DNA of 64,000 bases from Aureococcus anophagefferens (taxonomy: Eukaryota; Sar; Pelagophyceae; Pelagomonadales; Pelagomonadaceae), in NCBI RefSeq assembly GCF_000186865.1, contig NW_008705569.1, positions 625,307 through 689,306 on the forward strand, in the 5' to 3' direction. The notes below the pieces were generated by a model. It had not been told where the DNA came from and did no database searches. It saw nothing but the letters and a program-made list of their open reading frames with translations. How positions within the stretch are numbered: position 1 is the stretch's first letter; every line of letters starts with the position of its first letter. A program made the position numbers and the translations under genes. This document shows positions 3,850 to 62,875 of this stretch, in pieces.

Positions 3850-6233
3850 TCACGCGTAGTTGCGGAAGAGCTCCTGGGCGATGAAGAGGAAGTAGAGGCC
3901 GAACATGGTGAAGCCGAGGCCCTTGGACATCTTCCAGCCGGACGCGGCGATGGAGATGATCACCGCGGCGACCATGGCGAGGAGGATGGCGACGCTCAGC
4001 GCGTTGCCGTTCGCGTGGCCGCCGACGGGCACCGGGCAGCCGTGGACGAGCGTGAACGCGAGCCAGGGGAGCGGGAGGCCGACGGCGACGTCGAAGATGT
4101 TGGAGCCTGGGCAGCAAAAGGGTGATTCAACGTCGCTTCAACGTGAGTGTTCCGCGCGCGCGCGTTCCGGAAAAAGCATCCACGCTTCGAGACCGTTCCG
4201 AGAGATGATCGCTCGTCCAAAAATCAGCCGAAACGAGTGGAAAACGGCCGAGATCGGAGCCTTTGAAATTGGGAATTTCGCTCTCTTTTGCTGCCCTGGT
4301 TGGAGCCGATGGACGAGGACACGGCCATGTCGCCCTTGCCCTGCTTCGCGACGGCGACGCTCGAGAGGAGGTCGGGCACGGACGTGCCCGCCGCGAGGAA
4401 GGTCAGCCCCATGATGAAAATCGGAATGCCCGTGAAGCAGCCGATGGACACGATGCACTCGACCATGCCGAAGCTGTACGCGCCGATCCACGCGATGGAG
4501 CAGACGAAGCTGAGGTAGCAGTAGTGCTCGTTGCCGATGACGCGGCAGTCCGGCACCGTCAGCGCCAGGGACCCGTTTAAAGGGAGGAGCAGGACCGTCG
4601 CGAGCGCGTCGCCGGGCGACGCGGTCGTCAAATCCCTGAGCGACGCGGCCACCGCGGCCCGCATGCCCGTCGCCGCCTCCTGGACCTCGTCGGCCTCCTG
4701 CTTCTGGGCGACCCAGAAGGGCGTGCCCTCGTACCAGCGCTGGAACTCGTCGTAGGACGCCTGCTCCTTGCCCGCGAGCACCGCCACGAAGTCGTCGACG
4801 GCGCCGTCGACGCGGTCGGCCAACAGCGCGTTCGCCGCCGTCAGGGAGCGCACGACCTCGCGCACCTCGGCGACGTCGACGGCCCCGGACTTGTCGAGGT
4901 CGAACTGGTCGAAGGCTTTTTTGGTCTCCGCGCGGAGCCGGCTCTCGGACGAGATGTACCACAGCGTGAACTCCTTGAAGTCGATGGTGTTCGAGTGGTC
5001 GATGTCCAATTCCTTGCGCAACGCTTCGAGCTCTGTCTCATCATAAGACGTCGCGTCGCCCAGCAGGCCCAGGATCTTGCGGAACTCGCCCGCGTCGAGG
5101 CTCCCGTTGCGGTCCGCGTCCAACGAGTCGAACGTCGCTCTCACGTCGCCCTTGATGCGCGCGACGACGGCGATGCCCGCGTTCATCTTGAGGTCCGCGT
5201 GCGTGAGGTTCCCGAGGAAGCCCGCGGAGAAGGTCGTGTGCTCCTCCTTGGCCTCGCCGTCCGACGGATCCGCGGCCGCGTCGCCCGGGCTCACCTTGTA
5301 GCGCTCCTCCTTCGCGAGCTTCCGCTTCACCCACGACTCGAGCTTCGCGTTCTGCGACATGAGGAAGACGTAGCCGAAGTACAACGAGAACTGGATGCCC
5401 GCCTCGGCGCCCGTGATGAGGCCCGTCGACGTCGTCGTGAAAAACGACGCGAGCGTCCCGAGCGTGAGGATGTAGTAGCAGCAGTCGCGGGCCAGGGGCC
5501 ACCACGTGAGCTTCAAAGGCCCCAGCTCCTTGGGCGTCGCCAGGGCGCACATGCCGATGACGAAGAGCACGTTGAAGACCGCGGAGCCGACGATGGTCCC
5601 GAGGCCGACCGTCGACCCCTGGAACGTGCCGATGAAGGACGTCGCGAGCTCCGGCGCCGAGCCGCCGGCGGCCATCAGCGTCGCGCCGGACACGTCGTCG
5701 CTCAGGCCCCAGTCCTCGGCGATCTGCTCGAGCGAGGGAACGAACAATTCGTCGCAGACGATCGCGATGCCCACGAAGAGGTAGATGACGCAGACGACGG
5801 ACACGGCGAAGATGCCAAACGTGGTCCGCGCCGCGTTGCAGCCGCCGCCCCCGCGCTTCTTCTCCTTCTCCCCGTCGCTGTAGCCCCGGCCCCGGACCTT
5901 GTTGGCGTTCGGGTGCACCTTCTCGTAGACGGACTTGCAGATGGACTTCTTCGCGCCGAGCCGCCGGCGCGCCGGCGTGTGTGTGAGCGCGGACCGCAGG
6001 GCGTCGACGGCGCCGGGGCCGTGGGCGTAGGTGACGCCGACGGCGCAGAGGGCGAGCACCGCCGACGCCTTCCAGAAGACCTTGCGCTTCTGGCGGTGGC
6101 GCCGCCGCCGGGGGACCGGGGGCTGCCCCCGGCTCAGCGCGCGCGCCGTCTCGACGGGCGACGGGTCCAACCCGGAGGCGTCGCCGCCCCCGGAGCTGCC
6201 CGAACACCGGGCCTCGACGTCCGTGATCTCCAT
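3850..6233 (-). CDS. NCKX-type cation/Ca2+ exchanger with EF-hands, interrupted by an introner
   Basis: Exons 6233-4307 and 4106-3850 give 727 residues; the 200-bp intron between them is an introner. It is a membrane antiporter exchanging Ca2+ for Na+/K+. The alpha-1 repeat has GATLMAAGGSAPELATSFIG and GSAVFNVLFVIG. The alpha-2 repeat has GLTFLAAGTSVPDLLSSVAV followed by SSSIGSN, which the splice joins to IFDVAVGLPLPW. The cytosolic loop holds three EF-hands (LDADRNGSLDAGEF, LDIDHSNTIDFKEF, FDLDKSGAVDVAEV), so transport is probably Ca2+-regulated, as in plant NCL proteins. An upstream in-frame ATG at 6317 is possible, but 6233 leaves room for the shared promoter with the divergent cyclophilin gene. 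Frame and length are consistent across the splice (phase 1). Confidence 0.92.
4107..4298 (-). mobile_element. Introner, family A copy 1 (in NCKX gene)
   Basis: This is a 192-bp non-autonomous DNA element read on the minus strand. It starts CAGGGCAGCAAAAG and ends CTTTTGCTGCCCAG, a 14-bp near-perfect terminal inverted repeat. It is flanked by the exact 8-bp duplication GCTCCAAC. The intron runs from 4306 to 4107: it begins with the GC of the upstream duplication and ends with the element's own CAG. Removal rejoins the conserved GSN-IFD motif of the exchanger. The ends and duplication length resemble hAT transposons; it carries no transposase. Confidence 0.95.
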
Positions 6234-6335
6234 CTGGGATGAACGCGTAGGAGAGTGCGCTGATCTCGGGGTTATTGCACTGCAATGTTGTCCTTCAGCG
6301 CTGGCGAGCTGTGGCAAGAGCTCTCTAGTGCGAGT

Positions 6336-6434
6336 CGTCTATCGAGCGCGCGCCGCCGCCGCCGTCGCAGCCGTCTATCGAGCGCGCGCGCGCCGCCGCC
6401 GCCGTCGCAGCCGTCTATCGACCGCGGTCGCAGC
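6336..6434. repeat. GC-rich tandem repeat in the NCKX/cyclophilin promoter
   Basis: About two and a half copies of a 36-40 bp unit that starts CGTCTATCGAGCGCGCG and contains a run of CCG triplets. The copies start at 6336, 6372 and 6412. They lie between the divergent starts of the exchanger (6233) and cyclophilin (6453), directly upstream of the cyclophilin ATG. They keep an open frame by chance, so the cyclophilin frame appears extended upstream. Confidence 0.8.
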
Positions 6435-16581: not shown

Positions 16582-17167
16582 ATGGCCGCCATGCAGGACG
16601 CGACCATGATCGACAAATTGAAGACGACGTACGACATGCAGCCGCACCCCGAGGGCGGCTTCTTCAAGGAGACCTACCGCGCCGAGTCGCGCATCACCTC
16701 GTCCTTCGGCGAGCGCAGCGCGTCGACGGCGATCTACTTCCTGATCACGCCCGGCTCCGTGTCGCGGCTGCACCGCATCCGCGCCGACGAGGTCTGGCAT
16801 TTCTCAGCGTCTTGCGGCCGTGACGAATTTTGAGAGATTTTGGCTGGGAAAACGATGAAAAATCGTCACCGACAGGCACTTTTATCTCGGCGGTCCCATG
16901 ACCGTCGTCGAGCTCGTCGACGGCGCGGCGAAGTGCACGACGCTCGGCCACGACGTGCTCGACGGCCAGCTCGTGCAGTACACGGTCAAAGCCGGCACGT
17001 GGTTCGGCTCCTTCCCCAACGCCGGGTCGGCCTACTCCTTCGTCGGCTGCACCGTCGCGCCGGGCTTCGAGTTCGAGGACTTCGAGTTGGGCTCGCGCGC
17101 CGCGCTCCTCGCCGAGTTCCCGGACGCCAGAGACCTCGTCGTCAAACTCACGGAGGGGCTTCCCTAA
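16582..17167 (+). CDS. DUF985 (cupin_5) family protein, interrupted by an introner
   Basis: Exons 16582-16796 and 16876-17167 give 168 residues. The sequence follows the DUF985 cupin pattern: HPEGGFFKETYRAESRI, then STAIYFLITPGSVSRLHRI, DEVWHFY restored by the splice, a central GTWFGSF and a terminal GFEFEDFELGSRAALLAEFP. Histidines of the cupin metal site (LHRI, VWHF) are present. The function of DUF985 proteins is poorly known. The intron is a 79-bp GC-AG introner at phase 2. The stop codon lies in the first copy of a 69-bp duplication shared with the convergent prolyl hydroxylase. Confidence 0.85.
16805..16875 (+). mobile_element. Introner, family C copy 1 (in DUF985 gene)
   Basis: A 71-bp element starting CAGCGTCTTGCGGCCGTGAC and ending CGTCACCGACAG, with a short imperfect inverted repeat (GTGACGA / TCGTCAC). 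It is flanked by GCATTTCT upstream and GCACTTTT downstream, an 8-bp duplication with two differences. The intron is 16797-16875, GC-AG, and splicing gives an uninterrupted VWHFYL in the cupin. Confidence 0.85.
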
Positions 17168-28896: not shown

Positions 28897-30264
28897 ATGT
28901 TCAGCTTTCGGTCCCGCGGCGGCCCCGTGGCCACCCCTCCCCCGGTCGACGACCTCAGCCAGGCGCCCCTGGCCCTGCTGCCGGCCAAGAGCACCTCCTT
29001 CCTTGGGGAGAATCTCGAGATCGACGCCCAGCTCCGCAACTCGATCCTCGTCGCCGGCGCCGGCGACGCGCGGGCCAACGGGCTCTACCGGCGGTGCGGG
29101 ACCCAGAACGACGCGCCGCGAGCCGCGGCGTCCGGGGCGCGCGCGCGCCGTCGCCGCCGCGAAAGGCTTTGGATACCGAGAGCGCAGAACCCCCCGCCCC
29201 GCGCGCGGTCGCCGGGCCCGCCGACCGGGGCAGCGCGTCGGGCCGCACGGAACCGCCCCACCCCGCATCAGGCGCTGGCGACACGTCGACCGGAGCTGGC
29301 TCTGCATCCTCCGCGACGGGTCGAGCGCGTCGGCCCGCGTTTCGCCCCGCGCGCTATGCCGAACCCCATCTCGCGCCCCGCAGGCTGGTGGATCGGCGCG
29401 GAGAAGGCCGCGCGCGAGGACCTCTACTGGTGCGACGCCGTCAAGGCCGCGCCGCCCCGGGAGGAGCAGGCCGCGGCGGGCGGCCTCCGGAGCTGGCGCG
29501 TCTGCAGCTGCGACGACCGCGCGCACCGCCACTTCCGGGGCAGCGCGCCCATCCCGGCCCTGAGCTGGCGCGACGCGGCGGCGGCGCCGCCGGAGGCGGA
29601 GCCCCTGGGCCACTACGCGGCCGAGGAGTGCCCCATCTGCCTCTGCGAGCCCGAGGGCGACGCGGCGCGCATGCCCTGCGGCCACGTGGCCTGCGCGCTG
29701 TGCCTCAGCCGGGCCAAGGCCATGTCGCCGCGCTACGTCGTGAGCGACGACTGCGCGCGCTGCCCGCTCTGCCGCGCGCCGTTCGCGCTCGCGGGCGCGA
29801 CGCACCTCGCGACGAAACAGCCCCTCCTGGAGGCGCTGCCGAACCTCGTCAAGGACGGCGAGAAGCCCATGGAGCGCGAGGCTTCCGCGCCCCGCGGCGG
29901 CATCCGCCGCTCCTTCGTCTCCGTGCGGTCCAACCCGCTGAGCCCGTCGACGCGCGCCGCGCAGCGCCGGCCGCAGGCGCCCGACAGGGCAGGACAAGAG
30001 AGCGAAATTCCAAACTTCAAAGCTTCATATCTCGGCCGTTCGTTTTCCACTCGTTTCGGCTGATTTTTGGACGAGCGATCATCTATCGGAGCGCTCTCGA
30101 AGCGTGGGTGCTTTTTCCGGGACGCGCGCGCGCGGAACACTCACGTTGAAGCGACGTTGAATCACCCTTATCCTGCCCAGGCGCCCGACGAGCACCAGCC
30201 CACGCGGACGCGCTCCAACTCCGGGAGCTGGCGGTCCCGCGTCGCGTCCATCTTCTTCTCCTAG
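28897..30264 (+). CDS. RING-finger protein (probable E3 ubiquitin ligase), interrupted by an introner
   Basis: Exons 28897-29976 and 30181-30264 give 387 residues. The RING domain (residues about 245-290) reads CPICLCEPEGDAARMPCGHV, then CALCLSRAK and CPLCRAPF, a C3HC4 pattern. Upstream are two conserved-looking blocks, NGLYRRCGTQNDAP and MPNPISRPAGWWIGAEKAA. Between them (about 29110-29350) the sequence is Arg/Pro/Ala-rich and unlike protein; it may be an unrecognised intron. The introner-derived intron (29977-30180, GC-AG, phase 0) joins RRPQ to APDEHQPTRTRSNSG. Without splicing a short foreign tail and stop would follow. Confidence 0.8.
29985..30180 (+). mobile_element. Introner, family A copy 2 (in RING gene)
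   Basis: A 196-bp element starting CAGGGCAGGACAAG and ending CTTATCCTGCCCAG, with the internal sequence shared with the other three A copies (CACTCGTTTCGGCTGATTTT and others). The flanking duplication GCGCCCGA is exact on both sides. The intron is 29977-30180, GC-AG, phase 0. Confidence 0.95.
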
Positions 30265-33020: not shown

Positions 33021-35877
33021 TCAGGACGCGTTGGAGAGGTCGTCGGTCTGGCGCTTGCGGTCGCTGGATGACGGCGTGCGGTCGCGGGGCGTGTTCGTGG
33101 AGAAGGAGCCGTCGCCCTCGTTGCTCGCGGTCTCGTCGTCGCCGCCGCCGCCGCCGTCGCTCTGAAACAGGATGCGGTTGAAGGGCTGCTCGCCCGCGCG
33201 CGCGTCCGTCTTCAGGGGCTTGGCGCAGAAGGGGCAGATGGGCCGGTACCGCGCGTTCGGCGGCGCGTTGTCCGGCAGCGCCAGCGACGCCCACTTGCGC
33301 GCGACGCGCTCGCTCACGATGTGGCCGCACGGGTTGAACGCGACCTCGGGCTCGTCGTCGCAGATCGCCGGCTCCCACTCGAGCTTGAGCTCGACGAAGG
33401 GGCCCCGCGTCCGGCAGAGCGGGCAGGGCATGCGCCTAGGGAGACGTACGGGTCGCGATTCGTTCCCGGGGGACACGCGCTCGAGAAACGGGCGCTTTCG
33501 CGAGGGTCGGCATTGCAGAATCGGTGTACTCTCAGCGCCGCGCAAGGACATCACTCCGGCGCGCGGCTCGACAAGAACGCAGCGATGTGTTCGAATAGAC
33601 GTGTCTCGTCATCCCCTCGAAAGAAACGACCCCCGAAGGGACGCGGCGACTCGCTGGAGCTCCGGCGCGAAGGCGTGGACGTGGCCGCAGGCCGGGAAGA
33701 TGTAGGGCCGGCGGTCCTGGGCGAGCGCTCGTCGCTTGTCGTCGTCGTACTCGAGGCGGATCGTGTGGAGCTGGACCGGGCACTGGGGCCGCCGCGCGTT
33801 GAAGCGCGCGACGATGCGCGCGGGCGCCGCCGCGTTCGGGTCGCCGGGGATCTGCCGCGACCGCTCGCCGGACTGGGAGAGCTCGCGGCGGTCGCCGGCG
33901 CGCGCCGCGCGCTCGTGGGCGCGCATGGACGCGGCGGACTCGTAGAGGAGCTGGATGCCCGCGAGGTCGACGATGGTCCCGTTCGTGAGCGTCGAGTTCT
34001 CCAACGCGAAGCGCTTGCCCGCGACGTCCGCCCGAGCTCGCGGCTCGTGGACGCCGCCGTGGACGGAGACTTCCCTCCAGGCGCCGATCTCGGGCTTCCA
34101 GATGCGCACGCCAAAGGTCGTCAGCGCGTCCCACTGCGCGCCGTCGGGCTCGCCGCCGTCCTTGCCCTCGTCGTCGAGCGGCGGCGCGTCCGCGGCCCGT
34201 TCCCCGGGCGCGAGCTGCCACTTGGGCGCCTGCTCCGAGAGGAAGATGTCGCGCTCGTTGTTGAAGCCCGCGGCGTAGAGCGTGCACTCGTAGGGCGGCC
34301 GCCGGGAACACGTGAGGCGGCACGCGTACCGGCTCACGGGCCCGCACAAGACGCCGCCCGAGTCGAGGTGCAGCGGCCCCCGGACCACAAAGTCGTTCTG
34401 GGGCACGATCATGCGGCCCAGCTGGAACATGTCCTCGCGCGCGTCGGGCACGTACTCGACCGTGACGCGCTTCGGCGCGGACACGGGCTTGCCGTCGGCG
34501 CCGCGCGCGCCCGCGGCGACGGACATGGTCACGGAGTGCGACGCGGCCGCGGACCGGTACTTGCCGTGGTGCGCGTCCTTCTTGTCCGGCGGCGCGCTGG
34601 AGAGGTAGACGGCGTCGCGGCGGATGCCGTTGGCGACGTCGCGGCGCCGGAGCGCGAACTTCTCGTTCCGCGCGCCGACGGGGTGCCACGTCGACCCCTC
34701 GACGCGGTACTCCTTGTAGCCGAGCACGATGAGCTGCCCGTAGACGGCGCCCTCGCCCGTCTCCGCGGCGACGTCGTCGGCCTGGCGCAGCGACGCGATC
34801 TCCTCGTCCGTGAGCCGCGGGCCCGCCTGTGTGGAAATCAACCAGTGGAATGGACGCGTCCAGCAAAACTTCAAACCTCTCTATCTCGGCCAAATCGAAG
34901 TCGATTCGGCTGATTTTTGGACGAATCGATCGCTCTCGTCGAGTTCTCGAAGCAGAGCCGAAGAGCTTGTGTCCACCTCTTCGAATACGCGCACATTGAA
35001 GTCTGGTTGAAGATTTGATTTGCACACAGGGGCCCGCGGCTTCGCGCGGGTCGACGACCCACAGCGGCGCGCCGAACGCGCCCTTCACGGCCTTGGCGAC
35101 GCAGCACAGCACGACGGCGTGGTCCCGCTTCATGCCGATCTCGCAGTAGTCCTCCCACTCGTCGATCTCCGCGAAGACCCAGCCGTCGAGCGCGTTGTCG
35201 CCGAAGAGGCCGCGGTACGTCTCCACGTCCGCCGCGTCGAACCCCAACTCGCCGCACAAATCCGCGAGCTGGGGCACGCGCATGGCCGTCAGGTCCGCCG
35301 GCGACACGCGCGCGCAGACGTCGACGACGGCGGGCGCGTAGGCGCCGACGCCCTCCATGCGCATGTGGCGCTCCAACTCGGGCATCTTGACGCGGGGCCG
35401 CGCGTCGCTAACCTTCGCGCCGGGCCGGCCCGCCGCGAGGGGCGAAGGCTTGTCGTCGTCCTCGCCGCCCTTGGCCGCGGGCTCGGCCGGCGCGGCGATG
35501 CGCTCCGTGGCGCCGCGGTCCAGCTTGGCCTCGGCGACGGCCGGCGGCGCTTCTTTCGCTTCGTCGCGGCCGGCGACGGCGGCCGTCGCGCGGCGCGGGG
35601 CCGCGTCGGCCTCCGGGCCGGGGGCGGCCTTGTGGTCGCCGTCCTTGGACTCGTCGTGCTTCGACTCCGCACCCTCGGACCGCTTGGCCTCGCCCGCGTC
35701 GGGGCACGGGGTCGCGGCCTCGGCCTTGGCGTCGGCGTTCGCGCTCCGCCGCCGGCCGAAGTAGCCGCGGCTCGGCGCCCGCGGCGTCGTCGCCGGGTCC
35801 TCGACCCGCGGCGCGCTCGACGTCTCCGGCCGGGCCGACTGCGTCGCGCCCAGGTTCCGCGCCAGCCGCGAAAGCAT
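33021..35877 (-). CDS. SAM-domain plus Pellino-like E3 ubiquitin ligase, three exons
   Basis: Exons 35877-35038, 34826-33655 and 33435-33021 give 808 residues in one frame. Residues 1-165 are disordered. Residues about 195-270 resemble a SAM domain (GLFGDNALDGWVFAEIDEWE, then IGMKRDHAVVL). The rest follows Pellino: YGQLIVLGYKEY, VTVEYVPDAREDMFQLGRMI, DFVVRGPL, SRYACRLTC, YAAGFNNERDIFLSEQAPKW, TTFGVRIWKP, REVSVHGGV, IVDLAGIQLLY, NARRPQCPVQLHTI, then the RING-like zinc residues ACGHVHAF, MPCPLCRTRGPF, FNPCGHIVSE and CPFCAKPL. Intron 1 is introner B (34827-35037). Intron 2 (33436-33654) is inferred as GC-AG with donor GCGAGT. Animal Pellinos act in Toll/IL-1 receptor signalling; the role here is unknown. 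Confidence 0.88.
34827..35029 (-). mobile_element. Introner, family B (in Pellino gene)
   Basis: A 203-bp element read on the minus strand starting CTGTGTGCAAATCAA and ending TTGATTTCCACACAG, a 15-bp inverted repeat with one mismatch. The flanking duplication GCGGGCCC is exact. The intron is 35037-34827, GC-AG, phase 0, and splicing gives DPREAAGPRLTDEE. Internally it shares TCGTCCAAAAATCAGCCGAA with the reverse complement of family A, so it is a relative inserted the other way round. Confidence 0.93.
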
Positions 35878-42968: not shown

Positions 42969-45865
42969 ATGCGGCTCCGTCTCGGCGCGCCCGTCGTCGT
43001 CGCGCACCTGCTGCTCGCGGCCGCTGCCGTGCGCGCCGACGGCGACGGCCCCATCGTCGCCCGCGGCGTGCCCTGCTACGACAGCGACCCCGCCTACGCA
43101 GCGCTCATGCCGCGGCAGCAGTTCCTCGTCAACGGCGACCACACCGTCGAGAGCGTCGCGGCGTCGGGCTCGTGCCTCCGCGTCAACGGGACGCGGACGC
43201 TGGGCCTCGGCGCGTGCTCCGACAGCGGCAATTGGTCCGTGGGCGCCGACGGCGTCGCGGTCGACGGGCGGCCCCTGGGCTTTCGCTCGAATTCCATCCG
43301 GTCGAACCTCGAGGTCTGGGTCTCGACGACGAAAGGCGCCCAGATCGCCTACGAGTCCGTGAGCAAGACGTTCCGGCTGAAGCCGAAAGGCGGCTTCAAT
43401 CGGCTTGCGGCGGCGGACCTCTGCCTGGACCTCTCGCCCCACCCCGTGACGCCCTGCACGCCCGCGTCGCCGGCGTCGAGCCTGCCCTTCTGTCGGGGCG
43501 ACCTGCCGCGGGCGAAGCGCGTCGCGGACCTCGTGGATCGAGTCGAGCCGGACGAGGTGCAGAAGCTGCTCGTCAACGGCGCCGCGGGCCTGCCCCGGCT
43601 CTGGCTCCAGCCGCACAACTGGTGGAGCGAGGCGCTCCACGGCGTCCAGGCCGGCTGCGCGCAGGCCGACGACGGCTCGAGCCGCTGCCCCACGGGGTTC
43701 CCCGCGGCGATCTCGACGGCGGCGTCGTTCAACGCGACGCTCTTCCGCGCGGTCGGCTCGGTCATCGGCGCGGAGGCGCGCGCGCTGGCCAACGAGGGCG
43801 TCACGAACGGCTTCACGTTCTGGTCGCCGAACCTGAACATCCTCCGGGACCCGCGGTGGGGCCGGGGCCAGGAGACGCCCGGCGAGGACCCGCTCCTCAA
43901 CGGCAAGTACGGCGAGAACTTCGTCTTGGGCTTCGAGCACCCGGACGGGTCCAGCGGCGACGCCATCGCCGCGTCGGCCTGCCCGAAGCACTTTTTTGCC
44001 TACAACCTCGAGAACTGCTTCAAGGTCAAGGACAACTGCCGCCACACCTTCGACATGGCGAACCTGAGCCAGGGCGAGCTCGAGGCCACGTACCTGCCGC
44101 CCTTCGAGCAGGCCATCAGCTCGGGCAAAGCGTCGGGCCTCATGTGTTCCTACAACGCCGTCAACGGGACGCCGTCCTGCGCCAACGCCTGGGGCATCGA
44201 GACGCTCGCGCGCGGCAAGTGGGGCTTCGAGGGCTACGTGACGTCCGACTGCCACGCGGTCGTCGCCGTGGAGCTGCCGTTTCCCACGTCCCACACCTGG
44301 GACCCGCAGCGCTCGGGCCACGGCTTCGATTTGAAGGGGGCGTCGCTCGCGAGCCTCGGCGTCGACCTGAACTGCAACCTCGGCGGCGGCTCGGTGGTCC
44401 GCGCGAACGCGACGGCCGTGAGCCCCGACGCCAAACAAGCGCTGACGCACCTCTTCGACGTGCTCTTCCGTCTCGGCGTGTTCGACCCGACGTCCGACGA
44501 CGTCTTCTCGAACTACGACTCGTTCACGGTCGGCAAGCCCGACCCAGCGTCCGGTTTTCGAGAGATTTCGACCGAGGAAACGATGAGACATCTCACCGAC
44601 GTGTTTGTAGGCCCGATCACTTGGCGATCGCGCGCGACGCCGCGGACCAGAGCTTGGTGCTGCTCGAGAATGGCGGCGCGCTCCCTTTGACCGCGGGCGC
44701 GAACGTGGCGGTGCTGGGCCCCTGCGGCGACGTCTTCAAGGGCGGCTATTCCGGCAATTTCCCCACGACGTCGGTGGCCGACGCGCTCCGGGCGCTGGAC
44801 TTTCGAGTGGCCGAGTCCCCCGGCTGCGTCGCGGACTCGCGGCTCGCGGGCAACGCGGCGAAGATCGCCTGCGTCGCCGACGCCAACGCGACGGCGGACG
44901 CCGTCGCGGCGGCGCGCGCGGCCGACGTCGTCGTCCTGGCGCTCGGCGTGTCCCAGGATCTGGAACAGGAGAACTTCGACTTCCGGGCGTTCGCGGACTT
45001 TGGCCTCGGCCTGCCCCCGGGCCAGCTCGCCGCGGCCCGGGCCGTCCTGAAGCTGGGAAAGCCCACGGTGCTCCTCCTCACGGGCGCGTCCGTCGACGCG
45101 TCGCCGATCCTGCGAGACGTGGACGCCGTCTTGTGGGCGGGCTACGCGGGCCAATTCGGCGGCGAGGCCGTCGCCGCCGCGCTCGCGGGGCACGCGAACC
45201 CCTCGGGGCGCTTGCCCATGACCTGGTACGCGCAAAACTTCTACGAGGCCTGGACGGCGCCGGCGCTGGACCCCTACACGGGCGCGGTCAACGCGTCTTC
45301 CGCGAACGCTTCCTACTTCGACGCGAGCCTGCTGCCCAACAACGCGACGGGCAACCCGGGCCGCACCTATCGATACTACACGAAGACTCCCGTCTACGCC
45401 TTCGGCGCCGGGCGGAGCTACTCGAACGTGACGTCGGCGCTCGCGTCGCCCGCGGACGCCGCCGTCGACGTCGCGGCCGTCGCGGCGCACGCGGCCGAGG
45501 CCGCGCGGGAGAGCGTCTTCGTCCGGGCCTCGCCGCGCGTCGCGACGGACGTCGTCGTCTACACGCTCGAGGTCGTGGTGACGAACGAGGGCCCCTACGC
45601 CGGCGCGCAGACGCTCCTAGTCTTCGCGGCGCCGCCGGCGCCCGGCGTCGACGGCGCGCCCCTGGAGCAGCTCATCGATTTCGCCAAAACCAAAACCCTC
45701 GCCGTCGGCGCGTCGATGACGCTGCGCGTGCCGATCCACGCCCACGACCTCACGCTCGTCGACGCGGTGCGCGGCGGCCGCGCGGCCGCGCCGGGCCTGT
45801 GGACGCTCCGCGCGTCCGTCGCGGGCCGCGAGCGCGACGTGCGCGTGCGCCTCCGCGTGCGCTAA
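42969..45865 (+). CDS. secreted GH3 beta-xylosidase-like enzyme, interrupted by an introner
   Basis: Exons 42969-44536 and 44611-45865 give 940 residues. MRLRLGAPVVVAHLLLAAAA is a signal peptide. Residues about 20-180 are an extra N-terminal domain, perhaps lectin-like (SCLRVNGTRTLGLGACSDSG). The GH3 barrel follows: NWWSEALHGVQ, FWSPNLNILRDPRWGRGQET, PGEDPLLNGKYGENFV, CPKHFFAYNLEN and GFEGYVTSDCHAV with the nucleophile Asp. The second GH3 domain has DAADQSLVLLENGGALPLT, ANPSGRLPMTWY and YRYYTKTPVYAFGAGRSYSN, and a FnIII-like end. The gene would release xylose or similar sugars outside the cell. The intron (44537-44610) is a GC-AG introner at phase 2. Confidence 0.92.
44545..44610 (+). mobile_element. 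Introner, family C copy 2 (in GH3 gene)
   Basis: A 66-bp element starting CAGCGTCCGGTTTTCGAGAG and ending GTGTTTGTAG. It is flanked by GCCCGACC upstream and GCCCGATC downstream, one difference in eight. The intron is 44537-44610, GC-AG, phase 2; splicing gives VGKPDHLAIARDAADQS. It lacks the GCGGCCGTGAC block found in the other two C copies. Confidence 0.88.
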
Positions 45866-48893: not shown

Positions 48894-48894
48894 G
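48812..48894. repeat. 83-bp direct repeat, left copy
   Basis: Starts CCGCGGCCCGAAGCCGGACC and ends GAGTCGGTGAG. It contains the end of the importin-like gene, including the TGA. The right copy is at 49833-49915 in the same orientation, with about seven differences. Confidence 0.92.
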
Positions 48895-49736: not shown

Positions 49737-49832
49737 CTGCGACGCACAAGGCGAGAGGCGAACCAGCGGCAGAATCGTCGGCAACACCACTGCATCCACT
49801 GCAATAGCCTTGCAATGTTGCGGCACCTGAAG

Positions 49833-49915
49833 CCGCGGCCCGCAGCCGGACCTCGACGATGAGGCGCCGAAGGCCAAGGCGGCCTGGGGGGAGCGTTCCA
49901 TCCCGAGTCGGTGAG
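49833..49915. repeat. 83-bp direct repeat, right copy
   Basis: Second copy of the repeat at 48812-48894, in the same orientation. Here it is not part of a gene and lies 32 bp before the stop of the ankyrin gene. The two copies enclose a segment of lower GC. Confidence 0.92.
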
Positions 49916-49946: not shown

Positions 49947-50750
49947 TCAATAGTCGCGCGGGGTGCGCCAGAACGCGAGCACGTGCGAGAAGACGTCGTC
50001 GGGGACGTCCGCGCGGAGGAAGAGCGTTTCGTGCAGGGGCACGCTGCTCGACGGGCTCGCGCGCCCCCGCTCGCGGAGCGAGGGGAGCTCCCGCCGGAGG
50101 GCGAGCAGTTCCGCGCGCGGCGCGTCGACGTACGGCCGCCAGCCGCCGGCCGCGCGAACCTCGGCGAGCAGGTCGGCCGACGCCGAACCTTTTTCGCGCG
50201 CGCGGGCCTCGGGGTCCTGACCACTCTCAGTAAGAGCGTCGAGCGACGCGCCTCGACTCATGAGGAGCTTGCTCATTCTTGACAGACCGTTCGTAGCACA
50301 GTAGTGTAGGATTGTGATTCCCTCTCCGCGGCCGCCGGGAGCGTTGATCCGCCCGCCTGCATCTAGCAGGAGGAGCACTGCTTCGTGGTGATCCTCGACA
50401 GCGGCGGCGTGCAGCGGCGCCCATTCATAATAGGGCGCGCCGAGATGCACGTCGGCGCCTGACGCGATGAGCCATTTCAAGGCCGACAACCAGCCTTCAC
50501 GCGCTGCGTGAAACAGGCGCGTTATTGCGTCTTTCCAATTACCATGCGGGTCAATGTACCCAGCGTCAAGCGCATTATCGCAAATGAGCTGGTCTAGATT
50601 GCCGCCGGAAGCGAGGTGGCGCACGTTCTCCTCATGGAACGAGCGCTCCGTGAATGGGGTCGGCTCCGCGTCGCTTGCGTCCGAGTCGCTTGCGTAATCC
50701 GGCCCCGCGTCGCTTTCGTCCGAGTCGCTTGCGTAATCGGTCGGCTCCAT
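49947..50750 (-). CDS. ankyrin-repeat protein with conserved C-terminal module (paralogue 2)
   Basis: The product has 267 residues. The N-terminus has a Ser/Asp repeat (YASDSDESDAGPDYASDSDA). Ankyrin repeats follow: ITRLFHAAREGWLSALKWLI, WAPLHAAAVEDHHEAVLLLL and ITILHYCATNGLSRMSKLLM. The C-terminal module aligns throughout with the protein at 20685-21395: VRAAGGWRPYVDAPRAELLA, GRASPSSSV, and PDDVFSHVLAFWRTPRD. The N-terminal half is lower in GC than the C-terminal half, as in the paralogue. Confidence 0.85.
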   Translation of the reverse strand: MEPTDYASDSDESDAGPDYASDSDASDAEPTPFTERSFHEENVRHLASGGNLDQLICDNALDAGYIDPHGNWKDAITRLFHAAREGWLSALKWLIASGADVHLGAPYYEWAPLHAAAVEDHHEAVLLLLDAGGRINAPGGRGEGITILHYCATNGLSRMSKLLMSRGASLDALTESGQDPEARAREKGSASADLLAEVRAAGGWRPYVDAPRAELLALRRELPSLRERGRASPSSSVPLHETLFLRADVPDDVFSHVLAFWRTPRDY

Positions 50751-51395: not shown

Positions 51396-54133
51396 CTAGT
51401 TCTTGTGGAGGAGGCTCTTGAGGCTCACGGGCGTCGCGCCCTGCTTCTTCGCCGCCGCGGCGGCCGGTTCCGGGTCCGCGCCGTACGGGCAGCCGCGGTT
51501 CCAGTTCGCGGCCTGCTGCGGGTGCTGGGCCCGCTCGCGGAGCTCGAGGGGGTGCGCGGAGAAGGTGCCGCTGCCGCCGCCGGCGGCCCCGGAGACGTCG
51601 GCCCGGGGCACGGGCGGCGGCGGCGCCGACGCCGCGAGGCGCTCGGATTCGTCGCGCGGCGCGTACCACTTGAGGATGCCGCCCTCGCCGGCGGCGTGGG
51701 CCAGCGTCAGCGCCGAGGACCGCTTGACGCCGAACTGCTGGTCCATCTCCGACACGGCCTCGTCGAGGGAGACCTTGCCGAAGTCGCGCGCGAAGTGGAA
51801 GTTTTGCCGCTCGACGCGCGACTGGCCGCGCTTGACCGCGTGGGCGTCGTCGCGCCGTTCGAGATGGCTCTTCTCCTGGTTCCAGGCGACGATGTCGCCG
51901 TGGCACTGGCCGCTCATGGGCTTGGGCACGGCGAACGTGGGGTCGTCGCTGTTCTTCGCGCCGCCCCGCAGGCCCCGGCGGCAGAACTCCTTGGGCGCGG
52001 GCGGCGCGTCGGGCACGCGCCAGGGGCCCTTGACCCAGCGCAGGAAGGACACGTCGCCGGGGCCTAGGGCCGCCGACACCTGGCAGTAGTAGGCCTCCCA
52101 GTCGTCGGCCGTGATCGCGCCGTGCCGATTCGCCGGCAGGTACAACGCGAAGTCCTTCCGGACCGCCGTCGCGTCGGCGACGCCGTCCAACACGAGGGGA
52201 TGCTTGTGGGCGTCGAAGGCGCGCCGCACCTCGTTGGCGTCCGCGAGGCCGTCGCCGACGCGGTCGAACTTCTGGAACGCCGCCCGCACGGCCGCCAGAC
52301 GCTTCGGCGGGAAGCCGCCGACGTCCCCCGGGAAGGCGACGTTGCAGCAGTACTGGACGAGCTGCGTCGGGCTCAGCATGCCGTTCTTCATCATGTCGAA
52401 GCGCGCGAAGAAGGCGCGGCGCTCCGGGAGGTCCAACGTCGCGGGAGAGGCGTGCGCGTCGAGCGCGGAGCAGAACTGCGCGAAGTCGACCGCGGGCTCC
52501 GCGTCGTGGGCGTCGCCGTCGAGGGGCAGCGTCGCGACGCGCCCGAGCCCGAGGAACAGGGCCCGCAGGCCGTGGGCGCCCTTGCGCCGCAGCGCCGCGA
52601 GCACCTTCGACGCGAGTTCCGTGTCGACGTCGACGGCGTTGATGCCGAAGTCGCGCTGCCGCGCGTCGAAGTAGCGCTCGAAGGCGGACACGAACTTGGA
52701 CAGGTTCGCCTCGCCGGAGGCCTCGCAGTCCGTGAGGAGCTTGAGCACCGCCGGCGGGATCTCGACGCCCATGGCGAACATGCGGTCCTGGAACGCGCGC
52801 GCGGACATGTCGCCGTGGCCGAGCTTGCGCACCGCGGCGTAGATCTGCTGGCGCTGGAGCGCCTGCTCGCTGTTGCGGATGCCGACGACCTCGGGCTCGC
52901 CCAAACCCGCGCGCATGGCGACCTTGGTCGCCGTCGCGAAGCGCGCGTCCGTCGACGTCTCCTTCCGCTTCACCTCGCCGTCCTTGTAGGACCACGCCTG
53001 GGCAGCACAAGGGTGATTCAACGTCGCTTCAACGTGAGTGTTCCGCGCGCGAGAGTTCCGGAATAAGCATCCACGCTTCGAGGCCGTTCCGAGAGATGAT
53101 CGCCCGTCCAAAAATCAGCCGAAACGAGTGGAAACCGGCCGAGATCGGAGCCTTTGAAGTTGGGAATTTCGCTCTCTTGTGCTGCCCCGGACCACGCGAG
53201 CTGCGATCCGACCTGCGACGACCCCTGGAGCTCGCGGCTGCGGCTGCCGAAGAGCTTGCGGCCCGTGAGCGATTTCTTGGGCGACCCGTCGGCGCCCATG
53301 CCCTCGTCCCGGGGCAGCTCGCCGAGGAGCTCGTCCTCCAGCGACTGGCCCTGGAGCGCGAGGCTCCGGCCGAAGATGGACGCGTTGCGCGCCGGGTTCG
53401 TGCGCTTCCGCGCGCCGTAGAAGGACATGAACTCCTCGACGACGTCCTCGTCGACCTCCGCGTAGGTCTGGGGCCGCCGGCCGCCGGCGGCCGCGTGGTC
53501 GCGGACGCTGACCGTGGCCGCGTGGCCCTTGTAGCGCCCCTCCGTGGGCGCGAGGGGCGGGCCGCCGGAGTCGCGCGCCACCAAGGCGCGGTAGAACTTG
53601 TGGAACACCAGATCGTTGCCCCCGCGGGCCTTGGCGAGCGCCGCGTCCAGGTCCGCGGTGACCTGGAGACCTAGATCCCGCAGCTCCGCCTTCAATCCCG
53701 CGTCGTCGGAGAAGCCCCGGGAGTAGCGCTCGAAGACGACCTGCAGCTCGCGCCGCTTCTCCCGGGCGACGCGCTGCTGGTGCTCCGCCTCGACGGTCGC
53801 CGCGTGGGCCTGGAAGGGCCGCACGGGCGCGTCGACGTAGCCGTGCGACATCTTCTTCGCGGACCGCGGCGCGGGCTGCCGCGGCTCCAGCTCCGCGAGC
53901 GCCGCCTCGCGGCCCTCGGCGGAGACGGCGTCGCGGAACTCGCGGTAGTCGACGTAGCCCTCCTCGGAGATGGCGCACTCGCACATGATGTCGTCGACGA
54001 CGCGCATGCCGTACTTGAGGCCCAGGCCCTCGATGGCCTGGAGGAAGAGGCTCGCGTGGATGCTGCCCGTGCCGTCGCCGTCGTAGCGCTCGACGGCGCC
54101 GAGCACGACGGACCGCAGCTCGAGCTGGTCCAT
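51396..54133 (-). CDS. multi-EF-hand protein, interrupted by an introner
   Basis: Exons 54133-53198 and 52997-51396 give 845 residues. EF-hand-like loops recur: YDGDGTGSIHASLF and CAISEEGYVDYREF near the start, FDMMKNGMLSPTQL and FDRVGDGLADANEV in the second exon, plus degenerate ones around ERYFDARQRDFGINAVDVD. The layout resembles long calcyphosin-like or ciliary EF-hand proteins, but I cannot name an orthologue. The intron (52998-53197, GC-AG, phase 0) is a family A introner and rejoins SQLAWSYKDGEVK. Without splicing the frame stops soon after the junction. Confidence 0.85.
52998..53189 (-). mobile_element. Introner, family A copy 3 (in EF-hand gene)
   Basis: A 192-bp element read on the minus strand starting CGGGGCAGCACAAG and ending CTTGTGCTGCCCAG. 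The duplication GCGTGGTC is exact on both sides. The intron is 53197-52998. Internal sequence matches copies 1, 2 and 4. Both ends have AGCACAAG where copy 1 has AGCAAAAG, so the two termini vary together. Confidence 0.95.
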
Positions 54134-56540: not shown

Positions 56541-57874
56541 ATGAGCGCGCTCGCGCAGTCGACGAGCCTGCTGCGGCGCGCCCCGAGCAGGTACGAGGAG
56601 GAGAAGGAGATCTGGGAGCACACGGGCGACGACGTCGAGGACGTGCTCGGCGCGGCGCTGGAGCCCGAGTCGCTGTCGCTGGAGCTGCCCAAGCACAACG
56701 CGCGCGCCGAGGTGCGCCTCATCGGCGGCTTCGTCGTCGGCCTCGTCTTCATGCTCGCCATCCTGTTGCGGCACACGGACACGACGGGCCGGCGCGCCAT
56801 CGGCGAGTTCGGGAAGCTCGACCGCGCGTTCGTGCTGTCGACGCGGGGCAAGAACAACACGAACAGCCCGGAGATGGACCGCCTGAAGCTGCAGCTCGCG
56901 GCCCTGCACCTGAGCAGCGACGACGTCCAGGTCATCTACGCGCCGGAGCGCGTCGCGCTCGACGAGCGCACGTTCCAGCGGCCGAAGAAGGCCTCGGACC
57001 GGGGCGCGTGGGACCGGCGCGTGGCCTCCAAGGCCATGGGCATGCGCCACCTCGTCCACAGCCTCGTCGCCTGGGCGGGCAAGTCGCCGAAGCGGCACCC
57101 CATCGCTTTGGTGCTCGAGGACGACGCGGTGTTGCTGCCGGGGGCCGTGAGCGTGCTCAACGACGCGCTCCGCTTCCTGGAATCCGCGGAGGGCGTCTTC
57201 GGGAACTGGGACCTGCTCTACGCGGCGCACTGCGGCGAATGTCTGTGGTGGGCCGACGCGCTGACGGCGTCGTCGACGGCGCGGCTCGGCGGCGGCCTCA
57301 ACGAGGACGAGATCGGTTTGGCGGACTACGCGTACAACCGGAGCCACGACCCGGGCTGCACGGCGGACTACGCGGAGTTCCGGCGGCGCAAGGGCCGCGT
57401 GGGGACGACGGTCGGGACGACGAAGCTGCCGCGGACGCGCCAGCGCGACGTCGCCGTCGCCGTCGAGCGGCGGACGGTGACGAAGCTGTCCGGCGACACC
57501 GCGGCGCTCGCGACGGCGGTGGACCCGCGGTGCAGCGACGCGCTCGTCGTCCGCGACACGCCGGGGCTGCGGAAGCTGCTGCTGGGCGTCGTCGACGGCG
57601 ACGAGGGCCTGCGGGGGCTCATCGAGGAGCAGTTCGACCTGAGCCTCGCGCGGCTCTCCGCGGACAAGCTCCTCCGGAGCTACGTCATCTGGCCGCCGGT
57701 GGTTCATCGGTGCCACGCAGCGTCCTGCGGCCGTGACGATTTTCGAGAGATTTCGGGAGGGAAAACAATGAGAAATTTGGTAGGTTCCACGACGGCTACG
57801 GGCGGCCCGACGACGGCTACGGCATGAACTCGTCCCAGTTCATCACGTCCTGGCTCGAGCTCCAGACGAACTAA
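56541..57874 (+). CDS. GT25-like type II membrane glycosyltransferase, interrupted by an introner
   Basis: Exons 56541-57709 and 57784-57874 give 419 residues. One membrane anchor (IGGFVVGLVFMLAILL) at about residue 75 precedes the catalytic domain, which begins LDRAFVLSTRG and contains MGMRHLVHSLVAWAGKSPKR and ALVLEDDAVLLPGAVSVL with the EDD metal-binding motif, as in family 25 transferases. It probably works in the Golgi. The intron (57710-57783, GT-AG, phase 2) is a family C introner; splicing gives VVHRFHDGYGRPDDGYG and a stop at 57872-57874. Confidence 0.85.
57718..57783 (+). mobile_element. Introner, family C copy 3 (in GT25-like gene)
   Basis: A 66-bp element starting CAGCGTCCTGCGGCCGTGAC and ending AGAAATTTGGTAG. 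It is flanked by GTGCCACG upstream and GTTCCACG downstream, one difference in eight. The intron is 57710-57783, GT-AG, phase 2. Its first 50 bases are close to copy 1; the 3' end differs. Confidence 0.88.
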
Positions 57875-59317: not shown

Positions 59318-59483
59318 GGTGTGTCGACCTTATCGCCTGATCAATCGACGAGCCATCGCGCGCTGTGACAGAAGTGCAGCTCGCTTTACGTCAACATGCT
59401 GCTCTCCGAACAGCTCGAAGCTCGAGGCTGCCCCAGGCGTCTTTCTGGAGGTGGTCGGCGGCCCCAGCTTCCGAGCCGCCACC

Positions 59484-61793
59484 ATGGCCGAGTTCCTCGG
59501 CACGCCCGAGGTCGGCGACCTCGCCGAGTTCAAGAAGACCATCGTCGCGTCGACGGAGTGGGAGGCCTTCGCGGACCTCGTCGTCGCGTCGGAGCGCGAC
59601 GCCTTTTTGTCGGCGGACACGCCCGTGGAGTCGCGGCCCGGCCCGCTGACGCACGGGAGGCTCCGGGCCTTCGTGGACGCGCTCGACCTCAACGAGCGCT
59701 TCGGGCTGAAGCGCACGGACAACGTCTGCACGGCCATCCCCAACGGGCCCGAGGCCGCGGTCTTGTTCGTCGGCGTCGCGACGCAGTGCGTCTTCGCGCC
59801 GCTGAACCCGCAGCTCACGGCGCCGGAGATCGAGTTCGAGCTCGAGGACCTGCCGGCGCACGCCATGATCCTGATGGAGGCGCGCCTGCCGGCCCAGAAG
59901 GGCAACGCGCTCTACGAGTCGCCCAAGCTCGTGCTCGAGTGCTGCGACGCGAACTCCGTGCCCGTCATCACGTTACTCCCCGACGCCTCCGTCGCCGGTC
60001 TATTTACGCTCGACTCGGAACTGTCGAAGACCCCGGGCCCCGCGGTGCCCAAGGCCACGAAGGACGATTTGGCGCTCGTGCTCCACACGTCCGGAACGAC
60101 GAAGAAGCCCAAGATCGTCCCTTTGACCCACGGCAACATCGGCCACGGCGTCCAGTTCGTCGCGCGGACGCTGCGGCGCCAGCCAGACGACGTCTGCATC
60201 AACATCATGCCCCTCTTCCACATCCACGGCGTCATCGCGAACATCATGGTGACTTTGTATTCGGGATCGCGCGTCGTCTGCACGCGCGGCTTCCAGGGCG
60301 GCGACGACTTCCTCGACAAGCTCGCGGACGACTCGCTGGGCCCGCCGACGTGGTACAGTGCCGTGCCGACGATGCACGAGGCGATTTTGTTGGCGGCCGA
60401 GGACCGGGGTAGCAAGGGGCCCTGGGTCCATTCCTTGCAGATGCTGCGGAACTGCTCCGCGGCGCTGCTGCCGCCCGTGTCCGAGCGCTTCATCAACGCC
60501 TTCGGGACGAAGCTCAAGAAGGAGTTCACGGTCGTGCCGACCTACGCCATGACCGAGTCGTTCCCCATCTGCTCGAACCCGCCCCACCTGGAGTGCAAGC
60601 TGTCCACGGTGGGCCCCGCGATGGGCCCCGAGATCAAGATCTTGAAGGGCCACCCGGAAGACGAGGAGGTCGCGCCGGGCGAGGAGGGCGAGGTCTGCGT
60701 CTTCGGCGGCTGCGTCACGGCGGGCTACCTCATCCGGCCCCACATGGACTGCGACCCGAACGTCGAGGCGCTGACGAAGCCGGGCACGGTCGCGGCCGCG
60801 CCGCTGCTGCGGACGGGCGACAAGGGCTACATCGACGAGGACGGCTACCTCCAGCTCCTGGGCCGCTTCAAGGAGATCATCAACCGCGGCGGCGAGAAGA
60901 TCTCGCCCCTGGAGATCGAGGAGCGGCTTTTGAAGTGCGACGGCGTCGAGACGTGCGTCTGCTTCGCGGTGCCCTGCGAACTGCTGGGCGAGGTCGTCGG
61001 CGTGGCGCTCGTCTGCACGGCGGAGGTCAAGGCCGCGGCGGAGGCCCTGGAGGCCGACGACCACAAGCTGAGCCGCTTCCTGCGCAAGGGCGAGGAGAAG
61101 GACTGGGCGGACCCGCGGCCGCAGCTGTCGCAGCTCCGCGGCGCGCTCAAGGACCTGAGCCCCCAGTGGCGGCCCCAGTGCGTCGTCTACATGGACGCGA
61201 TCCCCAAGGGCCCCACGGGCAAGCCCAAGCGCATCGGGCTCGCGAAGCTTTTGAAGATGCCGCTGCTGTCCATCGAGGACCAGGAGCACTTCCAGGTCGC
61301 GGGCGTCGGCGAGAAGAACCTGGAGAAGCTCACCTACGCCGACGGCCGCTACCTCTTCCCGCCCCACATCTCCATCACCCTGTCCATGAACGACGACCTG
61401 AGCGACTTCTGGTTCCAGCAACACGCGCTCCACTACGAGGACGAGCGCCACGCGCTCCACAAGCTCGTGATGACGTCCCATGCCTGCGGCATCCCCATGG
61501 ACACGGACTGGTGGACCGTGACGCCCGAGGACATGCGCCGCACGCTCAAGGAGCTCATGCGGCGCCGCAAGCTCTACGGCAAGGAGTGGGAGTCGCCCCT
61601 CGAGCTCGGCGACGGCCTCATGAAGTACGACTGGCACGGCGACCTCGTCGTCCGCGACCTGTCCCTCTTCGACCCGGACCGCCCCATCCGGGACCAGGAC
61701 GCCGAGGTCATCATCATGCACCACAAGTGGCGCAAGAACTGCCGCGTGCCGCCGCCGGGGCTCATCATGGAGCTCCTCAAGATGCTCGACTAG
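59484..61793 (+). CDS. AMP-forming acyl-CoA synthetase (AAE3/Pcs60-like) with a C-terminal extension
   Basis: The product has 769 residues from an ATG in the context GCCACCATGG. The ANL signatures are complete: the P-loop LVLHTSGTTKKPKIVPLTHG, NIMPLFHIHGVIANIM, TYAMTESFPICSN, and RTGDKGYIDEDGYLQLLGRF followed by KEIINRGGEKISPLEIEE with the adenylation lysines; KGPTGKPKRI holds the C-terminal catalytic Lys. The closest group is probably the peroxisomal oxalate/short-acyl ligases. Residues about 600-769 are an extra domain (ISITLSMNDDLSDFWF, MTSHACGIPMDTDWW, VIIMHHKWRKNCR) not seen in that group. No peroxisomal SKL ending is present. Confidence 0.88.
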   Translation: MAEFLGTPEVGDLAEFKKTIVASTEWEAFADLVVASERDAFLSADTPVESRPGPLTHGRLRAFVDALDLNERFGLKRTDNVCTAIPNGPEAAVLFVGVATQCVFAPLNPQLTAPEIEFELEDLPAHAMILMEARLPAQKGNALYESPKLVLECCDANSVPVITLLPDASVAGLFTLDSELSKTPGPAVPKATKDDLALVLHTSGTTKKPKIVPLTHGNIGHGVQFVARTLRRQPDDVCINIMPLFHIHGVIANIMVTLYSGSRVVCTRGFQGGDDFLDKLADDSLGPPTWYSAVPTMHEAILLAAEDRGSKGPWVHSLQMLRNCSAALLPPVSERFINAFGTKLKKEFTVVPTYAMTESFPICSNPPHLECKLSTVGPAMGPEIKILKGHPEDEEVAPGEEGEVCVFGGCVTAGYLIRPHMDCDPNVEALTKPGTVAAAPLLRTGDKGYIDEDGYLQLLGRFKEIINRGGEKISPLEIEERLLKCDGVETCVCFAVPCELLGEVVGVALVCTAEVKAAAEALEADDHKLSRFLRKGEEKDWADPRPQLSQLRGALKDLSPQWRPQCVVYMDAIPKGPTGKPKRIGLAKLLKMPLLSIEDQEHFQVAGVGEKNLEKLTYADGRYLFPPHISITLSMNDDLSDFWFQQHALHYEDERHALHKLVMTSHACGIPMDTDWWTVTPEDMRRTLKELMRRRKLYGKEWESPLELGDGLMKYDWHGDLVVRDLSLFDPDRPIRDQDAEVIIMHHKWRKNCRVPPPGLIMELLKMLD

Positions 61794-61816
61794 GGAACGA
61801 GCGTAAGGAAGACCTA

Positions 61817-62875
61817 TTACTGGCGCTTGTTGATGAAGGAGTCCGTGCGGAGGCCCGTCGCCGCCTTCTTCTCCGCGTCCATCGCGCGCTTGACGAGCTG
61901 GGGCGGCGCCGTGAGCTCGTAGAGGCGGAACTTGGCGTCGCCCGATTTCCGCAGGTCCACCACGTGGTGCTGGGACCGCTTCAGACTCTCGTTGGCGCGC
62001 CTCAAATCCTCCGCGTGCACCGTGAAGACCTCCTTGACGGTCCAGTCCTGCAATTTGATGACGTCGACGCACTCGAGCGTCGACCAGCGCTCCTCGATGC
62101 ACACTAAGATCTTCACCTTGGGGCTCTTCTTCGCGATCGCGAGGCACGCCGCGAGGAACGAGCCCGTGCCCGGGAGCGAGTAGAGCGCGTCCGCCGCGAC
62201 GACCAAATCGACGGTTTCGTCCGCGACCTCCCGGGGCAGGTCGCCGCTCCACGAGAGATAGGCGCACTTCACGGTCCGTAACTCGTTGGCCAGCGCCGAC
62301 GCCCGCAGCCCCTGCAAGATCTCCCTGTGCTTGTCCGTGAGGACGACGCGGAACGCGCCCAGTTTCGCGCACGTGAGCCCCGCGGCGCCGCAGCCCGCGC
62401 CGAGCTCGACCTGGGCAGCACAAGAGAGATGCAACGTCGCTTCAACGTGAGTGTTTCGCGCGCACGCGTTCCGGAAAAGCATCCATGCTTCGAGACCGTT
62501 CCGAGAGATGATCGCTCGTCCAAAAATCAGCCGAAACGAGTGGAAAACGGCCGAGATATCAGTCTTCAATGTTGGGAATTTCGCTCTCTTTTGCTGCCCT
62601 GAGCTCGACGACCGTGCTCTTGTGCACGACGTGGTGGTAGTGGCGGTGGAGCGTCAGGGCGAGCACGTGGCCCGCGGTCCAGCAGACGCCGCCGTGGAGG
62701 TGTCCCAGGCCCTCGTACTCGCGGAGCACGAGGTCGTTGCAGTGGATGGGCTGGTAGAACCTAGAGAGTGGTTCGTCATTTTTTCCCGCGACGACGACGA
62801 CGCGGGGCCGGACCAGCCCAGCTGGGAGCACCGCGGCCGGTCGCTGCGGTTCTCCGTGTTCAGAGGCTGCGACAT
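61817..62875 (-). CDS. METTL21/methyltransferase-16-like protein methyltransferase, interrupted by an introner
   Basis: Exons 62875-62814, 62760-62610 and 62410-61817 give 268 residues. The introner splice creates motif I, STVVELGAGCGAAGLTCAKL, followed by VVLTDKHREILQGLRA (motif II) and ETVDLVVAADALYSLPGTG, as in family-16 protein methyltransferases, which modify lysines on chaperones and translation factors. Upstream, REYEGLGHLHGGVCWTAGHV is the family's W-x-A-G block. The first exon and the 53-bp intron 62761-62813 (GT-AG, joining QLG to WFYQPIHCNDL) are inferred; the junction at 62410/62610 is firm. It is divergent from the 2OG oxygenase. Confidence 0.85.
62411..62601 (-). mobile_element. 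Introner, family A copy 4 (in methyltransferase gene)
   Basis: A 191-bp element read on the minus strand starting CAGGGCAGCAAAAG and ending CTCTTGTGCTGCCCAG. The duplication GTCGAGCT is exact on both sides. The intron is 62609-62411, GT-AG, phase 0. It is the only A copy here with a GT donor, because the duplicated target begins GT. Confidence 0.95.

Follow-up and report, generated by a model that had tools for sequence, protein, structure and literature searches.

Probable introners of a DNA transposon family in a 64 kb window of the Aureococcus anophagefferens genome, with predicted splicing of one element body in two polarities

Four near-identical elements interrupt four unrelated genes in a 64,000-nucleotide stretch of the Aureococcus anophagefferens genome (NCBI RefSeq assembly GCF_000186865.1, contig NW_008705569.1, positions 625,307 to 689,306 of the forward strand), which is called the window below. 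Each copy is very probably an introner, i.e. a non-autonomous inverted-repeat DNA transposon (miniature inverted-repeat transposable element, MITE) whose insertion into an exon would have created a spliceosomal intron. Copies of the same family were read across the genome, where the element body carries its splice acceptor at one end in most copies and at the opposite end in others. From the genomic sequence we infer that the elements are spliced out in the cell.

Family 1 copies in the window and their host genes

The four copies (family 1; Table 1) lie where an earlier note on this DNA had placed them, and the 8-bp flanking duplication described there is exact in all four. Read on the gene strand, each consists of an 8-bp duplicate, CAGGGCAG (CGGGGCAG at 52998), the remainder of the element ending in CTGCCCAG, and the second 8-bp duplicate. 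The 14-bp inverted ends match one another apart from position 2, and at 29985 and 62411 position 11 differs also. The element was said to have no coding capacity; there is a stop in every frame of the first three copies, but the fourth has one stop-free frame. Inverted ends with one or two mismatches in 14 positions, an 8-bp duplication and a length of 191–196 bp, too short for a transposase, are the attributes of a MITE, whilst many near-identical copies at unrelated positions, exact frame restoration and splice dinucleotides at both boundaries are those of an introner.

Cutting from the first base of the upstream duplicate through the terminal CAG of the element leaves an open frame in all four genes, as had been proposed. 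The predicted introns are of 200 bp (GC-AG, phase 1) at 4107, 204 bp (GC-AG, phase 0) at 29985, 200 bp (GC-AG, phase 0) at 52998 and 199 bp (GT-AG, phase 0) at 62411; the GC donor in three of the four is a point absent from the earlier note. Once copy 1 is removed PF01699 (574-719) spans the exchanger junction (~643), and once copy 4 is removed PF10294 (28-170) spans the methyltransferase junction (62), which falls inside the motif VVELGAGCG that the note had recognized as re-created there. Support is weaker at 52998, where no Pfam match spans the junction, and at 29985, where no Pfam domain covers the junction, the frame stops 27 codons on, a second frame is open too, and the RING matches of the host gene are under the Pfam cut-offs.

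Table 1. Positions of the predicted introners and their flanking duplications in the window (duplications on the gene strand)
Feature	Position	Strand	Length (bp)	Sequence	Host gene or remark
Introner copy 1, family 1	4107..4298	-	192	ends CAGGGCAG...CTGCCCAG	Na+/Ca2+ exchanger gene with EF hands
Copy 1 duplication, downstream	4099..4106	-	8	GCTCCAAC	predicted to stay in the mRNA
Copy 1 duplication, upstream	4299..4306	-	8	GCTCCAAC	source of predicted GC donor
Introner copy 2, family 1	29985..30180	+	196		near 3' end of RING-finger-like gene
Copy 2 duplication, upstream	29977..29984	+	8	GCGCCCGA	holds predicted GC donor
Copy 2 duplication, downstream	30181..30188	+	8	GCGCCCGA	
Introner copy 3, family 1	52998..53189	-	192	5' end CGGGGCAG	EF-hand protein gene
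Copy 3 duplication, downstream	52990..52997	-	8	GCGTGGTC	
Copy 3 duplication, upstream	53190..53197	-	8	GCGTGGTC	holds predicted GC donor
Introner copy 4, family 1	62411..62601	-	191		METTL21-like lysine methyltransferase gene
Copy 4 duplication, downstream	62403..62410	-	8	GTCGAGCT	
Copy 4 duplication, upstream	62602..62609	-	8	GTCGAGCT	holds predicted GT donor
Second-family introner	34827..35029	-	203	ends CTGTGTG...CACACAG; exact duplication GCGGGCCC	predicted GC-AG, phase 0
Short decayed introner	16805..16875	+	71	CAGCGTC...ACAG; duplication GCATTTCT/GCACTTTT (6/8)	predicted GC-AG
Short decayed introner	44545..44610	+	66	duplication GCCCGACC/GCCCGATC (7/8)	predicted GC-AG
Short decayed introner	57718..57783	+	66	duplication GTGCCACG/GTTCCACG (7/8)	predicted GT-AG

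The exchanger site could also be compared with existing proteins. A 727-residue A. anophagefferens protein was listed as 100 % identical to the spliced exchanger, and on reading the two differ by two residues. The protein model P0001 is joined at the same point as the predicted junction. Eight of 11 exchangers aligned with P0001, among them proteins from Pelagophyceae sp. CCMP2097 and Chrysophaeum taylorii, read SSSIGSN without a gap at the junction; the earlier note had seen a GSN motif restored in this gene. The other three are A. anophagefferens gene models: P0002 leaves out the stretch preceding the junction, P0003 translates the 3' end of the element (DVESPFCCPG) and P0005 its 5' end (QGSKRERNSQFQRLRSRPFSTR). 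As P0003 and P0005 are on contigs of 1,602,328 and 279,644 bases and the contig of the window has 1,572,790, two other records carry the element at the exchanger site. Both models would mis-translate the introner because its predicted GC donor was not used. Family 1 also makes clear why GC donors are frequent here and how such genes can be misread in gene models (P0003, P0005). Gene-model errors of this kind may be common in A. anophagefferens.

Frame, donor and acceptor across the genome

The genome searched comprised 49.05 Mb in 86 contigs. A DNA search with copy 1 gave 2080 first-look candidates, of which the best 40 were scored and were 97-100 % like copy 1. The search for all copies by their ends, which the earlier note had suggested, found 1135 places with both ends at the right spacing (578 + 557), compared with 0 and 2 for the reversed control pattern. 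A non-random sample of 67 distinct full copies was read, made up of the four window copies, 32 from a similarity search to one forward-body copy, one extra locus and 30 end-pattern loci (16 forward, two neighbours counted, and 14 reverse; the two polarities are defined below). The first 30 end-pattern matches on contig 1, whose ends are fixed by the pattern itself, served as a consecutive sample; L015 and L023 are common to this sample and the similarity-search set.

The frame test called for an open frame with third-position GC (GC3) of at least 0.85 on both sides of the join. Exact removal passed in 63 of the 67 copies in the sense direction, compared with 13 in antisense and three each when the cut was shifted by one or two bases; in the consecutive sample the corresponding numbers were 29, 9, 1 and 2. 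With the copy retained, none of the 63 was open and in frame. The shifted-cut comparison is the most telling; it places the predicted join exactly to the base. The 8-bp duplication was exact in 57 of the 67 copies (24 of the consecutive 30) and matched at no fewer than seven of eight positions in 61. Donors were GC in 38 copies, GT in 28 and GA in one, giving GC or GT in 66/67 against 19.9 % in the window (p ~2e-45), and GC in 16 and GT in 14 of the consecutive 30; the terminal CAG was present in all 67. Frame restoration, the donor constraint and acceptor conservation (see below) together support the earlier claim that the elements would act as introns. Two copies were unusual in their duplications: in L033 the exact duplication is GACCCCAT, which gives a GA donor, and in L031 the 8 bp on the upstream side, GTCGTGTT, come close to being the reverse complement of those on the downstream side, GACACGAC, perhaps through an inversion between copies.

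Among the 67 copies, 53 had the AG at one end of the body (forward) and 14 had it at the opposite end (reverse), with 16 forward and 14 reverse bodies among the consecutive 30. The GC or GT of the duplicate tracked the AG end in 52 of 53 forward and 14 of 14 reverse copies, and the frame likewise followed the AG end. This behaviour of the donor in both polarities argues that its bias would come mainly from selection for splicing and less from target choice linked to the body, and that copying would occur at the DNA level. All but one of the 53 forward copies had a CTNAY branch-site-like motif at a distance of 41 bases from the 3' end. The motif was found in none of the 14 reverse copies, so that the reverse form, if spliced, must use a different branch site. 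Polarity was clustered on the tree of copies (four changes, compared with 12.9 when shuffled; three with FastTree). Strongly supported branches forced two polarity changes, with the bootstrap not settled. A one-clade test was compatible with the reverse polarity having arisen once (p 0.27), so that repeated switching is possible rather than demonstrated.

The asymmetry of the inverted ends at position 2 coincides with the predicted acceptor. The terminal AG lies there in the 3' end, CTGCCCAG, and a perfect repeat of CAGGGCAG would end in CTGCCCTG, i.e. without AG. The pairing of CAGGGCAG with CTGCCCTG occurred at 0 places genome-wide (control 2). The pattern CTGCCC[CG]G gave six matches, five of them without the family body in the listed stretch; in the sixth the AG was intact and the match arose from the adjoining duplication. 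Against the 1135 places with the acceptor, the searches found not one copy of the family in which the acceptor base was changed and the ends were intact. The base at the 5' end that matches the acceptor position did vary, being A in 64 and G in three of the 67 copies and T in seven further places. Pyrimidines made up 0.68 of the 25 bases before the AG in one polarity and 0.69 in the other, compared with 0.50 in the window.

An acceptor at both ends was indicated at 14 places (reversed control, six), but seven of these were artefacts of an offset, with CTGGG preceding the normal end. Among the other seven, four had duplications matching at 7 or 8 of 8 positions and GC or GT on a single strand, and a matching coding frame was present in three of the four; two were shifted by one base and one had a 5/8 duplication and no clear frame. 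True double-acceptor copies were rejected, and these seven places were treated as ordinary copies with a changed 5' end.

A joint account of these observations, to which we would give an even chance of being right, holds that the inverted repeat lies one base from a 3' splice site, its purine-rich inner part becoming the pyrimidine-rich tract at the 3' end. In a perfect CAGGG-type inverted repeat, a change from CAGGG to CTGGG at either end would turn the terminal CCCTG into CCCAG and so create an acceptor. The change would have occurred at both ends, yielding two inherited opposite polarities of one body (perhaps with more than one switch), and a second family with CTGTGTG ends (see below) would have the acceptor on both strands. 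Selection would hold the acceptor base (1135 to 0 among copies that keep the other end bases), whilst the matching base at the other end varies. If this account is true, MITEs of the CAGGG type are general near-introns, and the polarity of a copy is a natural test of splicing selection versus target choice by the transposase. The copies illustrate how one base at the end of an element would make an intron work, in either direction.

Proposed insertion and mobilization, and known introners

In the mechanism proposed, insertion would duplicate 8 bp of the exon. The upstream duplicate would provide the 5' splice site, surviving sites beginning with GC or GT, and the element would provide the pyrimidine-rich tract and the CAG at its own 3' end; excision of duplicate and element would return an uninterrupted mRNA. 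An insertion into a coding exon would persist if, on the strand that puts CAG at the end of the element, GC or GT are the first two bases of the duplicated target. Movement would most likely be cut-and-paste by a hAT-type transposase acting in trans.

Several observations weigh against parts of this interpretation. Open GC3-rich frames are common in so dense a genome, and 504 of 1460 random points on a given strand passed the frame test. Four of the 67 copies failed it, one being the window copy at 29985, which lies shortly before the end of its gene. When the opposite strand was read, 28 of the 67 copies (p 4e-5) and 12 of the consecutive 30 (p 0.01) had GC or GT at the far end of the duplication, about 20 % being expected, so that part of the donor bias may be a (symmetric) target preference. 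The acceptor counts include only copies whose other end bases are intact. The hAT dimerisation domain PF05699 (Dimer_Tnp_hAT) and the KDZ domain each had 0 matches in the genome in searches whose control also gave none, and the IS1595/Merlin-type domain PF12762 and MULE domains had 0 matches in searches whose controls worked.

Mobilization by a non-hAT transposase (P, Zisupton-like KDZ, Merlin or MULE-like) is possible, if the less likely reading. P, Zisupton-like KDZ and Merlin transposases make duplications of about 8 bp, and a MULE-like enzyme is a further candidate. Such an enzyme would fit the silence of the hAT search and the bases of the duplications, which have G at their first position and an excess of C at their eighth. 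The preference of hAT elements for nTnnnnAn targets is not strictly defining. Among copies whose duplications match at no fewer than 7/8 positions (49 forward, 12 reverse), T stood at position 2 in 17 forward and 7 reverse copies, and A at position 7 in 11 and 1, respectively; positions 1 and 2 are under constraint from splicing, which hides the remainder of the pattern. Against a non-hAT enzyme, the KDZ, IS1595/Merlin-type and MULE domains were likewise missing from the matches, P elements not having been searched for, and the CAGGG ends with an 8-bp duplication are those of hAT Tip100 (PMC12511174). On this comparison family 1 has the 8-bp target duplication and CAG-type ends of a hAT element, and differs from Tip100 in its asymmetry at position 2, the site of the predicted splice acceptor, and in having no transposase gene, none having been found in the genome. 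The ends and duplication fit the hAT-type transposition put forward in the earlier note, but no hAT dimerisation domain was found in the search, whose control likewise gave none. An autonomous partner, sought as the same 14-bp end followed by four different next bases, gave 0 copies in the genome. The exact end pattern, used to look for spread by viruses, had 0 matches in viral_contigs.

Copying of introns through RNA by reverse splicing, rather than as DNA transposons, is very improbable. Nearly all copies read are in coding sequence in the splice sense (63/67), and introners of Micromonas and fungi are described as co-linear with transcription in PMC3443670. The survival of spliceable insertions only would explain the same orientation bias, however, and reverse splicing does not account for inverted ends or for exact 8-bp duplications in 57 of 67 copies. 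Nor would a copied spliced RNA strand be expected to give the same body as an intron both ways (16 and 14 of 30). That the copies are ordinary MITE insertions disrupting genes (pseudogenes or retained insertions), with frame restoration by chance, agrees with their anatomy but is scarcely credible given exact removal restoring the frame in 63/67 against 3/67 for cuts shifted by one or two bases, a GC or GT donor in 66/67, and an acceptor base kept at 1135 places with no intact-end copy in which it is changed.

The DNA-transposon origin of introns preferred here is, as a core fact, already known for A. anophagefferens. In 2016 Huff, Zilberman and Roy (Nature 538:533; cited in PMC9481584 and PMC7789003) reportedly described Aureococcus introners as short DNA transposons that are non-autonomous and have both inverted ends and direct duplications, the introner bearing one splice site and the duplicated exon supplying the other. 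That introners are established in this species, as the earlier note stated, agrees with PMC9481584, where a characteristic length of ~210 bp is given, similar to the 199-204 bp introns predicted here. According to PMC7789003, A. anophagefferens introners always have direct repeats and inverted ends with canonical splicing motifs, whereas 38 of the 67 donors read here are GC. The Amoebophrya introners of the same paper share with family 1 the inverted and direct repeats at the intron ends, but many of their splice motifs are non-canonical and their direct repeats measure 3-5 nt. The survey of Gozashti et al. 2022 (PMC9860276) gives GC donors as 0 to 50 % per family and allows opposite-orientation insertions in its search. 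In some of its families the introner bears the 3' splice site and the 5' site comes from the duplication (Fig. 2B of that paper), as is predicted for family 1; its Aureococcus sp. family 4, in contrast, brings both sites itself and lengthens the mRNA by 12 bp, where family 1 would add nothing. No statement of a single-base acceptor or of opposite polarities of one body was found in the literature searched, outside which lay the primary 2016 paper and all supplements.

Introners are a leading explanation for the rapid gain of many introns. Family 1 is large, young by the likeness of the 40 copies scored and used in both orientations, and can therefore separate what the transposase chooses from what splicing permits.

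Other probable introners, and repeats, in the window

In total the window appears to hold eight introners of three families, four of them beyond the family 1 copies (Table 1). In the second-family element the ends give a readable AG whichever strand is taken. Part of its centre resembles family 1 (~75 %) but runs the opposite way with respect to the gene. A search with it gave 1757 candidates, which may include family 1, and the best 40 were scored. Six second-family copies were read, including that of the window; all had exact duplications, with GC or GT on at least one strand and on both in two, and their frames were not decisive.

The remaining three are short and decayed. Removal of that at 16805 would restore DEV|WHFYLGG within a Cupin_5 (DUF985) gene. 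The one at 44545 sits between two domains of a glycosyl hydrolase family 3 gene, and its removal would join the inter-domain stretch; that at 57718 lies, close to the 3' end, in a gene that has no Pfam match. A scan of the window for introns with exact duplications gave one extra candidate, 59306-59558, which looks like chance and was rejected.

Two further repeats were noted in the window. A direct repeat of 84 bp (48811-48894 and 49832-49915) is 94 % identical between its copies, which are 1021 bp apart. Piecewise inverted similarity (71-86 %) links 20929-21389 with 49953-50422, perhaps representing paralogous genes on opposite strands.

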